A stretch of 45,484 bases of DNA, taken from Lachnospiraceae bacterium (GTDB taxonomy: Bacteria > Bacillota > Clostridia > Lachnospirales > Lachnospiraceae). The stretch is taken from the NCBI GenBank assembly GCA_017561085.1, contig JAFZDQ010000128.1, positions 1-45,484 of the forward strand, given 5' to 3'. The notes under the pieces were generated by a model, which was not told where the DNA came from, ran no database searches, and was given only the letters and a program-made list of their open reading frames with translations. Below, in pieces: positions 20,399 to 26,237 of this stretch (position 1 is the first letter of the stretch; each line of letters begins with the position of its first letter). The position numbers were made by a program, and so were the translations under genes.

Positions 20399-20427
20399 TT
20401 GACCTTGCAACTTCTGTAACATATAAT
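20399..20427 (+). promoter_or_regulatory. Strong promoter of the split pfl operon
   Basis: TTGACC (20399-20404) and a perfect TATAAT (20422-20427) with a 17-bp spacer. The expected start is near 20434 and the leader is about 66 nt. Confidence 0.85.
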
Positions 20428-20499: not shown

Positions 20500-22539
20500 A
20501 TGAGACCAGAATGGAACAATTTTGTAGGCGGCAAGTGGGAGAACGAAGTTAACGTACGTGACTTCATCCAGAAAAACTATCATCCTTATGATGGTGACGA
20601 ATCCTTCTTAGCTGAGGCTACACAGGACACAAAAGACTTATGGCAGATGGTACTTGAATTACAGAAAAAGGAACGTGAAGCAGGCGGCGTTCTTGATATG
20701 GATACCAAGGTTGTATCTACTATCGTTTCTCACGGCCCCGGCTATCTTGACAAATCCAAAGAAAAAATCGTTGGATTCCAGACAGATAAGCCCTTCAAGC
20801 GTTCTCTTCAGCCTTACGGCGGTATCAGAATGGCAGAAAAAGCTTGTTCCGATAACGGATATGAAGTAGATCCTGAAATCAGTGAATTCTTCTCTACTCA
20901 CAGAAAGACTCACAATGCAGGATGTTTCGATGCTTACAATGATGAAATGAGAGCTTGCCGTTCTTCACACATCATTACAGGTCTTCCGGATGCTTACGGA
21001 CGTGGACGTATCATCGGTGACTACAGACGTGTTGCTCTGTACGGTATTGATTTCTTAATTCAGGACAAACTTGCTCAGAAAGCATCTACAGGACGTGTTA
21101 TGACAGATGACATCATCCGTCTCCGTGAAGAACTTTCCGAACAGATCGTTGCATTAAAGCAGATGAAAGTTATGGCAGCTTCCTATGGTTGCGATATTTC
21201 CAAACCTGCTACTAACGTAAAAGAAGCTATCCAGGCTACTTACTTTGGTTATTTATGTGCTGTTAAGGAACAGAACGGTGCTGCTATGTCCCTCGGACGT
21301 ACATCCACATTCCTTGACTGCTACGCTGAAAGAGACCTTGCTAACGGTACTTTCACAGAATCTGAAATTCAGGAATTCGTTGATCACTTCATCATGAAAT
21401 TACGTTGCATCAAGTTTGCTCGTACACCTGAATACAACCAGATCTTCGCTGGTGACCCTGTATGGGTAACCGAATCCTTAGCAGGTGTTGGTGTTGACGG
21501 ACGTCACTTAGTTTCCAAGATGAGCTTCCGTTACTTACACACATTAACAAACTTAGGCGCAAGCCCTGAACCCAACTTAACAGTTCTCTGGTCTCCCAGA
21601 CTTCCCGAGAACTTCAAGAAATACTGTGCTAAGATGTCTATCCTGACCTCTTCCATCCAGTATGAAAACGATGAACTTATGAGACCTGACCACAGTGATG
21701 ACTACGGTATCGCTTGTTGTGTATCTTCCATGGTTATCGGTAAGGAAATGCAGTTCTTCGGCGCACGTGCAAACCTTGCTAAGTGTCTGCTTTACTCCTT
21801 AAACGGTGGTGTTGACGAAGTAACCAAGAAACAGGTTGGTCCTAAGTATCGTCCTGTATCCGGTGACGTTCTTGAATATGATGACGTTATGGATAAATTC
21901 GTAGACATGATCGAATGGATGGCTGACGTTTATGTTAATACACTTAACGTAATCCACTATATGCATGACAAATACTGCTATGAAAGAGCTGAAATGGCAC
22001 TTCATGACAGAGATGTTAAGAGATACTTCGCAACAGGTGTTGCAGGTCTTTCCATCGTAGCTGACTCCTTATCTGCTATTAAGTATGCTAAGGTAGAAGT
22101 TATCAGAGATGAAGACGGCGTTATCGTTGACTTCAAGACAACAGGTGACTTCCCTAAATACGGAAACGATGATGACCGTGTAGATAGCATTGCTCAGGAA
22201 ATCGTTACTAAGTTCATGACAGCTATCAGAAGACATCATACCTACAGAAACGGTATCCCTACAACCTCTATCCTTACAATTACATCTAACGTAACTTATG
22301 GTAAGGCTACAGGTAACACACCTGACGGACGTAAGAAAGGACAGCCTTTCGCACCCGGTGCTAACCCGATGCACGGACGTGATACTCACGGTGCAGTAGC
22401 TTCCTTATCTTCCGTTTCCAAGCTTCCTTTCAAGGATGCACAGGATGGTATCTCCAATACCTTCACTATCATCCCCGGAGCTCTTGGTAAAGAAGATCAG
22501 GTATTCGCTGGCGATATCGAAATCGACTTAGGAAACTAA
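20500..22539 (+). CDS. pflB: Pyruvate formate-lyase catalytic chain lacking the glycyl-radical domain
   Basis: Catalyses pyruvate + CoA to acetyl-CoA + formate in anaerobic fermentation. The 679-aa protein matches PFL from the N-terminus through the catalytic Cys406-Cys407 pair (GIACCVSSM) and the late motif [20 protein letters not shown]. It then stops at [19 protein letters not shown], where one-piece PFL (about 760 aa) continues into the glycyl-radical domain. That domain is encoded separately at 22802-23047, and 679 + 81 gives 760. The gene has its own AGGAGG site and a normal stop, so this is not a frameshift. It is first in a three-gene operon driven by a near-consensus promoter. The activity of the split pair is inferred. 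Confidence 0.95.
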
Positions 22540-22580: not shown

Positions 22581-22784
22581 ATGGACCAGAAAGCAATGAT
22601 AGACGATCTTGTAAAGATGCTGGACGCCGGAATGGCGCAGGGTGTCGGTCATGTAAATGTAGACACTGATTTATCAAGCAAGGAATCCAAGAATGTACAG
22701 ACAATGGGATGTTCGGATTGTTCCAGAACACCGCTTGCCTGCAGTGTTCCTACCCTGCAGGATGGATTAGATGATTTTCACTAA
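22581..22784 (+). CDS. Small Cys-tailed paralogue of the PFL radical domain, unknown role
   Basis: A 67-aa protein encoded between the two PFL chains, with GGGAGG before its ATG and 41 and 17 bp to its neighbours. Residues 10-27 (LVKMLDAGMAQGVGHVNV) align without gaps to residues 12-29 of the neighbouring radical-domain protein ([18 protein letters not shown]), with 8 of 18 identical. The second half has no RVSGYA glycyl loop. It carries instead MGCSDCSRTPLAC, giving C-x2-C-x6-C (Cys44, 47, 54). It therefore cannot hold the glycyl radical. It might occupy the same docking site on the large chain, or sense redox state or metal. I do not know of a described function. Confidence 0.85.
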   Translation: MDQKAMIDDLVKMLDAGMAQGVGHVNVDTDLSSKESKNVQTMGCSDCSRTPLACSVPTLQDGLDDFH

Positions 22785-22801: not shown

Positions 22802-23047
22802 ATGGCAGCAGTAAGTGAAGCTCAGGTACAGAACCTGGTATCATTATTAGATGGTTATTCAGTAAAAGGTGGACATCACCTTAACGTTAACGTATTAAAC
22901 AGAGATACATTATTAGATGCTCAGCAGCATCCTGAAAACTATCCTCAGCTTACAATCCGTGTTTCCGGATACGCTGTTAACTTCATTAAGTTAACACCCG
23001 AACAGCAGGCTGACGTTATTTCTCGTACATTCCACGAATCTATCTAA
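22802..23047 (+). CDS. Stand-alone PFL glycyl-radical domain
   Basis: An 81-aa protein equal to the C-terminal domain of pyruvate formate-lyase: [20 protein letters not shown], then [15 protein letters not shown], ending RTFHESI. The radical glycine is Gly56, 25 residues from the C-terminus, as in the Escherichia coli enzyme (Gly734). It resembles GrcA/YfiD, the spare radical domain that rescues oxygen-cleaved PFL, but here the large chain has no such domain of its own, so this should be an obligate subunit. An AGGAGG site precedes its ATG. It is the last gene of the operon, followed by a terminator. It is expected to be activated by PflA (25189-25938). Confidence 0.95.
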
Positions 23048-23065: not shown

Positions 23066-23104
23066 GAAAAACCCGCTTCGTAAGAAGCGGGTTTTATTTT
23101 TTGC
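23066..23104 (+). terminator. Terminator of the split pfl operon
   Basis: AAAACCCGCTTC-GTAA-GAAGCGGGTTTT followed by ATTTTTTT: a 12-bp perfect stem with a tetraloop. It lies 18 bp after the radical-domain stop and before the converging GGDEF gene. Confidence 0.92.
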
Positions 23105-23137: not shown

Positions 23138-25024
23138 TTACTTCATCTGCAACAGCAGTTTATCTTTTTTCTTTTGGGCATACATCCTGTCATCCGCAAG
23201 CTGCAGACACGCTGTCAGGGACAAATCCTTCTCTTCATCGATGCTGCAGATTCCATAACTTGCGCTAAACGGATAGGGCTTCTTTGCCCTTCTTTCTTCT
23301 TCCTGCATTTCTATAGGGAATGCTTCCCTGAACTGCTTTTCCCTTTCGTTTGTATCGCCAAACAGCAGAAGCGAAAACTCATCTCCGCCTACGCGGGCGC
23401 ATATTTCATTTTCACCAACAAGTCTCTTCAATACACTGGCAAGTCTGCGAAGCGCATCATCCCCCTCGGGATGTCCGTAAGTATCGTTAATCTGCTTAAG
23501 TCCGTTCATATCAATGCTGACAATTCCCAAATACTTCCCTTCCTTCAGTGCTTTGACACGAAGCACACGAAGCTGCTTTTCAAAACCTCTTCGGTTCAGA
23601 ATTCCGGTCAGGGAATCCTTATGATAAAGCTGCTTAATAATTTCCAGATTCTCTATCTCACGGTGCATTTTTTCATTTTCGATGGCACTGGCAATAACTG
23701 TCAGATAAGAACGGGTATAGTCCGTAACCCACCGGTTTCCTTTCATACCGGTAACAAAGTAACCATGGGCTTTATTCTTGTAATGAATAGGGAATACCAG
23801 ATAACCTTCAGGACCGTTTTCTTCCAAAATCCGCTCCGGCAAAATATACTTTCTGTCAAACTCTTCCATATAATTAGCGCCATTTCTGCTACCGTCAAAA
23901 ATCCGCCTCAGCACCATGAAGTCCGAATAACAGCTTTCTTTTTCGACAGCATCAATCCCTTTATCTTCTTCGCACAGGCAAACATATGCAATATGACCGC
24001 CTACGTGCGCAAAATATTTATCCGCAATCCGATAGTAATCATCTTCTTCAAAACTATCCTGGGTTTCCATGCTCATAAAGAAAGACTGTCTAAAGATTTT
24101 TTTCTGTAATTCAATCTCCCTACGTAACCATTCATAATAACTGCCGTCCTCTTCTTCGGTAGTGGCACAACCGCAACTTTCACGCAGCTGCAGGGTAGGT
24201 TTCACCCATTCTACCATATCCTGGGAACGGCCGTTGCAAACATTGTCTATCATTTCTACTGCTTTAACGCCCATTTCCACAAAAGGAACCCTGAAGCTGG
24301 TAATCGCCGGCTGATAACGACGCACCTCTAAAATATCATCATATCCCGTCACACAGACATCCTCAGGAACACGAAGTCCTCTGGCACGAAGCTCGTCACA
24401 AACAGAAAGCGCCATATAATCATTGGCACAAACAATGGCCTGCGGATAGGTTTCCCTTCCTTCCATAAACCAGTCAATGGCCTGTTTGCCCTTTTCTACC
24501 CAAAAATCACCTTCAAACATCATATGGGGATGAATAGGGATATCCTTCTCCATCATCACATCTAAAAAACCCTGATAGCGCAACTGGGCATCCATTCTGG
24601 ATAAGGTTCCGGACATAAAGCACACATCACGAACACCATGTTCTTCTACCAAATGACGTGTAATTTCTTCTATTGCTGCACGCTGTTCCACCTTTACATT
24701 ATAAAAACCTTCTCTGGGATCCTTCAAATATACCACCGGGCAGGTTGCATTCTTTTTCAAAACACTATACAACTCTTCTCCCATGCCGTCGATATCAAAA
24801 GTATCTTCCCCTACGATAATACCGTCAAACATACTGATATCGGGAATCTGGATAACGGCCTTTTCGCCCTCTGCATAAAGGACATTATCGCCGTACGCAC
24901 CGAAATTACAAAACACAAAAGCATCATAACCTAAGTCCTTTGACTTGCGTATGATACCTTTTAACATATTTTCCTGTAATTCCAGGGTTACTTCACCCAT
25001 AAAAACCCCAATACGTTTTCTCAT
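23138..25024 (-). CDS. Soluble LacI-type sensor fused to a GGDEF diguanylate cyclase
   Basis: 628 aa, cytoplasmic: no signal peptide or membrane helix. Residues 1 to about 285 form a LacI/periplasmic-binding-type ligand domain (segments AIVCANDYMALSVCDELRARG and VCVTGYDD are typical) but without the LacI DNA-binding head. A middle GAF-like region (about 300-450) follows, then a GGDEF domain (about 460-620) with an intact RVGGDEF (Gly546-Phe550) and DSLTGILNRRGF. It should make c-di-GMP from GTP in response to a small ligand. No RxxD inhibitory site is seen five residues before GGDEF (ENEI). The ATG at 25024 has GGAG nine bases upstream. It lies in opposite orientation between the pfl operon and pflA. 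Confidence 0.88.
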   Translation of the reverse strand: MRKRIGVFMGEVTLELQENMLKGIIRKSKDLGYDAFVFCNFGAYGDNVLYAEGEKAVIQIPDISMFDGIIVGEDTFDIDGMGEELYSVLKKNATCPVVYLKDPREGFYNVKVEQRAAIEEITRHLVEEHGVRDVCFMSGTLSRMDAQLRYQGFLDVMMEKDIPIHPHMMFEGDFWVEKGKQAIDWFMEGRETYPQAIVCANDYMALSVCDELRARGLRVPEDVCVTGYDDILEVRRYQPAITSFRVPFVEMGVKAVEMIDNVCNGRSQDMVEWVKPTLQLRESCGCATTEEEDGSYYEWLRREIELQKKIFRQSFFMSMETQDSFEEDDYYRIADKYFAHVGGHIAYVCLCEEDKGIDAVEKESCYSDFMVLRRIFDGSRNGANYMEEFDRKYILPERILEENGPEGYLVFPIHYKNKAHGYFVTGMKGNRWVTDYTRSYLTVIASAIENEKMHREIENLEIIKQLYHKDSLTGILNRRGFEKQLRVLRVKALKEGKYLGIVSIDMNGLKQINDTYGHPEGDDALRRLASVLKRLVGENEICARVGGDEFSLLLFGDTNEREKQFREAFPIEMQEEERRAKKPYPFSASYGICSIDEEKDLSLTACLQLADDRMYAQKKKDKLLLQMK

Positions 25025-25061
25025 TATTTCCAACTCCAACTCCAAATTTTACCCAGTATAA

Positions 25062-25188: not shown

Positions 25189-25938
25189 ATGCAAGGCAGA
25201 ATTCATTCACTGGAAAGCTTCGGCACCGTTGACGGACCCGGCACCAGATTCGTCGTATTTGTACAAGGTTGTCCCATGCGCTGCGCTTATTGTCACAATC
25301 CTGACACCTGGGCCATGAACGGCGGAACCCTGATGGAGGCCGAAGAAATTTTTGAACAATACAAAAGAAACGAACCTTTTTACAAAGGAGGCGGCATCAC
25401 CGTCACAGGCGGCGAACCGCTGATGCAGGTAGATTTCTTAATTGATTTATTCACCATCGCCAAGGCAAACAATGTCCACACCTGTATTGATACATCAGGT
25501 ATTGCCTATAAACCCACAAATACCGCTTTTATCGAAAAGCTGGACAAGCTGATGACTCTTACCGATTTGGTCATGCTGGATATCAAGCATATCGATCCCG
25601 CTAAACATTTAGAGCTTACCAAACAGCCTAACGAAGGTATCCTGGCCTTTGTCAGCTACCTGGAAGAAAAAGGGGTAGACATGTGGATCAGACACGTGGT
25701 TGTGCCCGGTATTACCGATGATGATAAATACCTGTTTGACTTAGGATACTTTATCGGACAGTTTAAGAACCTGAAGGCACTTGATGTGCTTCCTTACCAT
25801 ACCATGGGCGAAAATAAATACGAAAAGCTGGGCATTGAATATCCCTTAAAGGGCGTGCCTCCCATGGAAAAAAGTAAGATTGTGGAAAAGAAGGCGGTAA
25901 TCCTCGACGGCATCCGCAAACGCAGGAGTGAAAAATAA
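25189..25938 (+). CDS. pflA: Pyruvate formate-lyase activating enzyme
   Basis: Radical-SAM enzyme that abstracts a hydrogen from the PFL glycine, creating the catalytic radical. The 249-aa length is normal. The [4Fe-4S] motif C-x3-C-x2-C is Cys28-Cys32-Cys35 (GCPMRCAYC), the SAM-contact motif is VTGGEPLMQ, and the conserved TVDGPGTR is near the N-terminus. It must act on the separate 81-aa radical-domain protein rather than on a fused domain. AAAGGAG precedes the ATG. It has its own promoter, unlike species where pflA directly follows pflB; the GGDEF gene lies between. Confidence 0.95.
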   Translation: MQGRIHSLESFGTVDGPGTRFVVFVQGCPMRCAYCHNPDTWAMNGGTLMEAEEIFEQYKRNEPFYKGGGITVTGGEPLMQVDFLIDLFTIAKANNVHTCIDTSGIAYKPTNTAFIEKLDKLMTLTDLVMLDIKHIDPAKHLELTKQPNEGILAFVSYLEEKGVDMWIRHVVVPGITDDDKYLFDLGYFIGQFKNLKALDVLPYHTMGENKYEKLGIEYPLKGVPPMEKSKIVEKKAVILDGIRKRRSEK

Positions 25939-26066: not shown

Positions 26067-26237
26067 ATGGCATATGTTATTTCCGACGCTTGTATTTCTT
26101 GTGGTGCTTGTGCAGGACAGTGTCCCGTAGGCGCTATCTCAGAAGGAGACGGCAAATTTGAAATCGATGCTGCTACATGTATCAACTGTGGTTCTTGTGC
26201 AGGTGGATGTCCTGTAGGCGCTATTGTTGAAGAATAA
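26067..26237 (+). CDS. 2[4Fe-4S] ferredoxin
   Basis: A 56-aa clostridial-type ferredoxin, an electron carrier. Two near-identical cluster motifs are present, CISCGACAGQCPVGAI and CINCGSCAGGCPVGAI, each C-x2-C-x2-C-x3-CP. The gene starts at ATG 26067 after AAGGAGGA and ends at TAA 26237. Its place after pflA suggests it might reduce the PflA cluster, but clostridial ferredoxins serve many enzymes, so this is only contextual. Confidence 0.95.
   Translation: MAYVISDACISCGACAGQCPVGAISEGDGKFEIDAATCINCGSCAGGCPVGAIVEE

Follow-up and report, generated by a model that had tools for sequence, protein, structure and literature searches.

The stretch of DNA analysed here, hereafter the window, comprises 45,484 nucleotides from a Lachnospiraceae bacterium and encodes a pyruvate formate-lyase (PFL) split into a large chain and a separate glycyl-radical subunit, with a third, small gene lying between the two. 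The features of this locus are as follows.

20399..20427, + strand: candidate sigma-70-like promoter (TTGACC-17-TATAAT, 11/12 consensus positions), upstream of all three genes
20500..22539, + strand: large chain (core) of the split PFL, 679 aa, which stops before the radical domain and carries no Cys tail
22581..22784, + strand: 67-aa accessory protein, named cap67 here, between the PFL core and the GrcA3-type gene
22802..23047, + strand: GrcA3-type glycyl-radical subunit, 81 aa, with RVSGYAV containing Gly56
23068..23095, + strand: terminator-like hairpin (12-pair stem) and T run, 3' of the radical-subunit gene
25189..25938, + strand: PflA, the PFL-activating radical SAM enzyme (TIGR02493, 297.4 bits, above the cut-off)
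26067..26237, + strand: small ferredoxin-like protein, 56 aa, with two CxxCxxC..CP clusters by eye

The core scored 1103.5 bits on TIGR01255, covering positions 2-665 of the 744-position model. Its IACC loop begins at residue 404 and holds the active-site Cys pair in IACCVSSM, which by likeness to E. coli C418/C419 is probably the catalytic pair. The 81-aa radical subunit matched PF01228 at E 1.5e-23 and the GrcA3 model NF038360 with 157.7 bits, slightly below the cut-off of 158; its residues 6-80 align with E. coli PFL 679-758, so that the split falls where the radical domain begins. The cap67 frame opens with ATG and has a GGGAGG before it, and the gene lies 41 nt downstream of the core's stop and 17 nt upstream of the radical-subunit gene. 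The counts of promoter-like and terminator-like sites in the region did not exceed those in shuffled sequence. Between the radical subunit and PflA, the minus strand carries a GGDEF-type protein with a LacI-type front part by eye (23138-25045); a homologue lies downstream of GrcA in six relatives (L005, L007, L010, L012, L013 and L025), and in others PflA follows directly. Divergent from the PFL operon is a DUF1858 / hybrid-cluster-associated redox disulfide protein (TIGR03980; 20024-20215, minus strand), found near split PFL also in L037, L041, L048 and L052, and in several relatives tblastn placed the ferredoxin-like gene after PflA.

The cap67 protein consists of two parts: residues ~4-33 correspond to the front half of the radical domain (a helix and a beta10-type strand), and residues ~42-67 form a Cys tail. 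Six pairwise codon comparisons with relatives gave pS of 0.63-0.72 and pN of 0.08-0.14, and cap67 is thus a genuine conserved gene under purifying selection. The preliminary description had presented it as a paralogue of the radical domain on the strength of an ungapped match of LVKMLDAGMAQGVGHVNV to its 18-residue counterpart; 8 of the 18 residues are identical, exactly as reported there, and the paralogy was upheld by profile comparison with GrcA3 and by where the family profile matches. Among the 18,950 NCBIfam models searched at E<=10, GrcA3 was matched by 15/16 aligned cap67 members (best E 7.1e-5, still far too weak to reach the model cut-off; E 0.021 for the window's own protein), and nine other models were matched by one member each, with a best E of 0.0068. 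Alignment of the family with four GrcA3 sequences by hhalign gave 93.4% and E 2.5e-7 over front columns 2-34 (33 columns). When the cap67 profile was run against 391 whole genomes of the class, presumably Clostridia, the best 20 matches outside the family (L141-L160) all fell on a PFL or GrcA radical domain, covering GrcA residues 3-8 to 32-40. These profile comparisons show homology between the front halves of cap67 and of the glycyl-radical domain. Some weaker matches were two further small families or coat-type frames; two of them, L194 and L195, resemble coat-type proteins by eye and were discounted as chance matches. Pfam returned no family for the window's cap67 at E<=10, the family profile found at best an unrelated chain among PDB sequences (E 1.1), the plasmid and phage collections contained no match at E 1e-3, and neither Pfam nor NCBIfam has a model that covers cap67.

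Other small proteins with the same front half were also observed. One family is present in the same genome (G000:C97:7390-7581, minus strand; L197), where it adjoins a radical SAM gene by eye. It shares the radical-domain front half (hhalign 95.3%), ends in the tail YHHGRCDVGSPFATG.LFD, and occurs also in L046, L047, L049, L050, L190, L191 and L193; at E<=1e-5 it was found in 18/344 genomes of the order, 18/18 of which also carry a cap67 gene. For a third family, with the tail VSHKCCNMYGRPASETVGLLD (L188:4010-4249, L189 near 3940, L192 near 3965), profile comparison indicated kinship with both of the others (88.4% and 82.7%). NrdD was considered as a partner of the related HHGRC proteins and rejected: both NrdD genes of this genome match their model nearly end to end. 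The genome also contains a second GrcA3-type gene, 87-88% identical to that of the window (G000:C30:24109-24345, minus strand; L003, L196:8107-8346), with a Crp/Fnr-like gene nearby by eye and no PFL core on its 16-kb stretch. A second small-frame copy of GrcA is present in several relatives as well.

The tail of the window's cap67 reads C44-x2-C47-x6-C54, precisely the C-x2-C-x6-C that had been described, but this pattern is absent from 17/111 distinct relatives, one of them shortened by a stop. Three conserved Cys had been proposed; we found that two are kept in 110/111 distinct sequences, within AC-x-x-P[TN], the remaining sequence ending early at a stop, while the third, which opens the CxxC of the window's protein, occurs in only 94/111. 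A three-Cys metal site as a conserved feature of the family was therefore ruled out. The gap between the two conserved Cys is 6 residues in 105 sequences, 5 in 3 and 8 in 2; many of the 111 sequences belong to one genus. None of the 111 contains SGY or RVSG. Counted from the strand His, the invariant Cys lies 30 residues away in 83/110 sequences, mostly close relatives, and 27-38 residues away in the others; the His-to-Gly distance in the window's GrcA3 is also 30. When 668 windows of the PFL core were compared with the tail, the best match was the active-site loop (core residue 404 onward). The likeness of LACSVPTLQDG to this loop, which was spotted before the test and is thus post hoc, scored 0.039 against shuffles and was nearly equalled by another open reading frame of the window (16.83 vs 16.80), so that we take the resemblance of the tail to the active-site loop as a hint and no more.

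The occurrence of cap67 is tied to split PFL. Across 98 genomes (this one and its relatives), a match was present in 53 at E<=1 and in 43 at E<=8.1e-6. Many of the genomes surveyed are metagenome assemblies. A sample of 344 genomes of the order yielded 53 copies at E<=1.1e-12 in 52 genomes, with the next match at 2.6e-6. A separate GrcA, scored as a match in a short open frame, was present in 52/52 of these carriers. By script, the cap67 gene shares its fetched stretch and strand with the PFL core in 51/52 carrier genomes and, with coordinates read by eye, 52/53 copies adjoin a GrcA gene on the same strand. The exception (G759) has cap67 away from the core and a split PFL elsewhere in the genome. 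One further genome (G038) combines a detached copy with a split PFL, and one 67% complete genome (G042) has a cap67 copy and no GrcA that could be found. One genome (G048) was counted as a carrier despite a stop within the Cys tail of its copy (L045:5126-5314, minus strand), of which relatives have intact versions. The gene order in L204 (G247) is PFL core, GrcA, then cap67. In a contig scan, 358 stretches encode cap67 relatives; the 80 of 358 listed are mostly from Lachnospiraceae and include Acetatifactor muris, Kineothrix alysoides and Parablautia. Homologues thus do adjoin other split PFLs, whereas their absence there was what the preliminary description had named as a refutation, and the tie to split PFL held in all 52 carriers of the order sample.

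Several split-PFL cores from genomes without a cap67 gene end in sequences like DCSNGACSTPTLFEGLDNDEE or EECGNQACNIPNIMESIDNE, resembling the tail of cap67. We defined the split-PFL Cys tail as C-x(0-7)-[A/S/L/T/I]C-x-x-P, borne by either the core or cap67 and accompanying split PFL only, the partial genome G042 being a case beside this definition. An alignment of 18 tails, taken from cores as well as from cap67, shows an invariant P together with recurrent T/N-L, G and D. An HMM built from cap67 tails alone recovered nine core tails at E 7.6e-7 to 0.021 (best shuffle 1.3). A profile of both forms gave 14 matches at E<=1e-7 in the 391 genomes, some of them its own seeds, of which 8 lay on cap67 and 6 on PFL cores, followed by a gap to 0.01; at this threshold no other proteins were matched. 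It recovered 8/10 of the cap67 copies that the full profile found in the same genomes, missing those in G204 and G150.

In our samples the tail was found on the core, on cap67 or, in some cases, on neither of them, but in no case on both. The non-carriers of the order sample number at least 14, small-frame GrcA matches being listed to about E 1e-31, and two (G700 and G615) were left out of the count, their PFL core not being on the contig. Among the matches listed, the core bears a Cys tail in 11/12 assessable non-carriers vs 0/52 carriers (Fisher 1.6e-11); 3 of the 11 tails are clear and 8 are short variants, DCACCEP or DCLCCEP, which the tail HMM does not detect, and the clear tails alone gave 0.005 among the same listed matches. 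Thirteen further split-PFL genomes without adjacent cap67, taken from other searches, comprise 7 with clear core tails and 6 without: G038 with its detached copy, G452 and G290 with other Cys-containing ends, and G287, G250 and G349 with nothing. Over both sets, with order-sample non-carriers again restricted to the matches listed, clear tails number 0/52 vs 10/25 (Fisher 3.0e-6), and the conserved Cys pair is present in 18/25 assessed cores (11/12 and 7/13). All these Fisher values come from counts of related genomes uncorrected for kinship. By distinct tail sequence, the motif is present on 0/57 cores with adjacent cap67 and on 15/23 without; the eight untailed cores include two with a detached copy, one near miss (CGGDCGITP), one ending in GCC and four without such an end. 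Split PFLs with neither a core tail nor cap67 include those of G618, G287, G250 and G349.

In a tree of 76 PFL sequences, full-length and split forms separate at one branch with support 95. On the best tree, the core-borne tail requires 5 changes of state (2 forced by starred branches) and cap67 carriage 9, with 39 of 98 rows of cap67 carriers used and L148, which has the near-miss tail, counted as tailed; in a second tree, L143 (broken frame) was left out and its genome was read from L228. An independent-pair test on supported branches provided 4 pairs, opposite in 1-3 and the same in 0, for which a sign test was not significant. What supports the exclusion is the tally of related genomes, together with the 5 changes of the core-tail state on the best tree. 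Given that the tail resides either on the core or on cap67, cap67 is best read as acting on the PFL core, at the place where the radical domain would begin. Since a similar tail is fused to the core in many split-PFL bacteria that have no cap67, the protein appears to be a dedicated helper of the two-piece enzyme; a separate origin of the two similar tails is conceivable. The occurrence of related tails on cores in genomes without cap67 also suggests that the tail is the part that functions and that the radical-domain half serves as its docking handle, so that cap67 looks like a handle joined to a business end.

Studies on E. coli offer a framework for what such a protein might do. According to the available part of the work on YfiD (PMC8683613), PFL cut by oxygen retains residues up to 733 and is protease-prone, and residues 696-733, with barrel strand 10, are a recognition element needed for YfiD binding and activation; a core truncated at 696 does not detectably bind YfiD, has its radical lowered 32-fold, and is fully active once loaded. 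By analogy with what that source describes, the split-PFL core would be close by birth to the 696-truncated state. Because cap67 carries the helix and strand that the cut E. coli enzyme keeps, we propose, as a tentative reading with somewhat less than an even chance of being correct, that cap67 is an accessory subunit of split PFL and the trans-acting equivalent of the core's Cys tail, which docks in the place of GrcA3 as a place-holder or loader and is then displaced. The radical-domain half would dock on the core in the vacant GrcA3 slot, and the linker would set the Cys tail (DC..AC-x-VP) at the open mouth of the active site, close to the two catalytic Cys. For as long as no radical subunit is present, cap67 may close the open barrel, protect the core and mark it as loadable, and the arrival of GrcA3 with its radical would displace it. 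This proposal starts from a conserved gene, its front-half homology, its two Cys, its restriction to split PFL in the sample and the exclusion count, and would add to them a docking site, a role for the Cys and the displacement. A place-holder was among the roles suggested in the preliminary description and is the one that fits best, with the Cys-tailed paralogue and the split-PFL tie retained and the conservation of three Cys given up.

Several observations bear on this place-holder reading. The modal His-to-Cys distance in cap67 equals the His-to-Gly distance in the window's GrcA3, which counts in its favour, but the range of 27-38 in other members leaves the Cys in no single register. Moreover, the core-fused tail lacks the strand half, which argues that the tail works without the strand of cap67; the activity of the E. 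coli core cut at 696 once loaded, as given in the available text, indicates that closure of the barrel is not essential there (PMC8683613); and the four genomes with neither form of the tail also count against it. A more elaborate version, which we regard as possible but rather doubtful, would have split PFL run as an exchange cycle of three parts: a core that lasts, a radical subunit that is replaced, and a plug with a Cys tail that mimics the Cys loop of the active site. The plug, a copy of the front half of the radical subunit, would shut the empty core, shield it chemically and leave it loadable. If so, oxygen would cost the cell only an 81-aa cartridge, and the small proteins of the same genomes with a like front half and other Cys tails would be plugs for other states or partners.

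Other roles for the tail can be weighed against the same evidence. Cap67, or the fused tail, might instead remain on the core together with GrcA3 and control how the radical subunit opens to PflA, in the manner of BSS-beta or MASS-delta of other glycyl radical enzymes. In the available part of PMC12358834, some small accessory subunits are proposed to gate the radical domain, and MASS-delta touches that domain via its C-terminal tail. The fused-tail form would, in addition, leave the GrcA slot free. However, cap67 has the helix and strand of GrcA3, so that a single slot should not accommodate the two proteins; with two conserved Cys, and three in most members, it also has too few to supply a four-Cys cluster from a single chain. 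We consider such gating unlikely. A redox switch or radical quencher, in which the Cys pair forms a disulfide or donates a hydrogen atom and so silences the radical, glycyl or thiyl, before the chain is cleaved by oxygen, would account for the near-invariance of two Cys in cap67 (110/111) and for the pair in 18/25 cores without adjacent cap67 (the order-sample part among the matches listed), and the active-site loop is the tail's best match on the core. Yet that match is the post hoc one nearly reached by another frame, and the short core tails DCACCEP and DCLCCEP lack spacing between their Cys, so that this role seems to us somewhat less probable again than gating.

The Cys could also be secondary to a linear motif, PTLxxGLD, by which the tail docks another partner such as PflA, its ferredoxin or a protease adaptor. 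The invariant P and the recurrent T/N-L, G and D of both tail forms would agree with this, but no partner is indicated, and the tail profile matches no other protein in the 391 genomes at E<=1e-7; we regard a docking peptide as improbable. The short, Cys-rich frame with a radical SAM gene (PflA) near it might also suggest a RiPP precursor or a decayed GrcA gene without present function. Purifying selection on the gene, a tail conserved in 110/111 sequences and the fusion of a similar tail to an enzyme elsewhere leave this with hardly any likelihood, and a precursor with a variable core peptide beside its maturase was rejected on the same conservation and fusion of the tail.

Comparison with known systems places cap67 between several of them. 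Like GrcA/YfiD and GrcA3 (NF038360), it has the front-half helix and the barrel strand LV..LD....G.H.NV, homologous by profile, and a PFL without a radical domain as partner; unlike them, it lacks the RVSGYAV loop, the radical glycine and the C-terminal helix and has a Cys tail instead, and its score of 14.9 bits on NF038360, against a curated cut-off of 158, lies below GrcA3 membership. With residues 696-733 of E. coli PFL, as described in the available text of PMC8683613, it shares the same barrel strand, present on a core without an intact radical domain, and also the promotion of loading of a spare radical part, which is the role proposed for cap67; that segment, however, is a remnant of damage on the core chain, whereas cap67 is a separate gene with a Cys tail. 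BSS-beta/gamma, the HPAD small subunit and MASS-beta/gamma/delta are likewise small Cys-containing companions of glycyl radical enzymes, but those covered in the available part of PMC12358834 are HiPIP-like or rubredoxin-like metal proteins, whereas cap67 is a piece of the radical domain with two conserved Cys. A [4Fe-4S] cluster held by four Cys of a single chain, as expected of the HiPIP-like Fe-S subunits, was rejected for cap67, with two Cys conserved and the third in 94/111; a cluster shared between cap67 and another chain is conceivable. Literature searches on GrcA3, split PFL and related terms, which mostly covered papers outside subscription, yielded no account of cap67. We know of no accessory subunit of a glycyl radical enzyme that derives from a piece of the radical domain and can take the place of a tail on the enzyme itself.

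Oxygen destroys glycyl radical enzymes. Our analysis points to cap67 as a probable, undescribed third component of split PFL, found in many Lachnospiraceae, and the occurrence of the Cys tail in cis or in trans is a genetic pattern that makes its site of action testable. In the available text of the E. coli YfiD work, the strand that must leave the slot is still needed for loading (PMC8683613). A natural system in which that strand is a separate protein provides a direct route to why loading needs it. Cap67 thereby bears on how anaerobes repair or protect their glycyl radical enzymes against oxygen.
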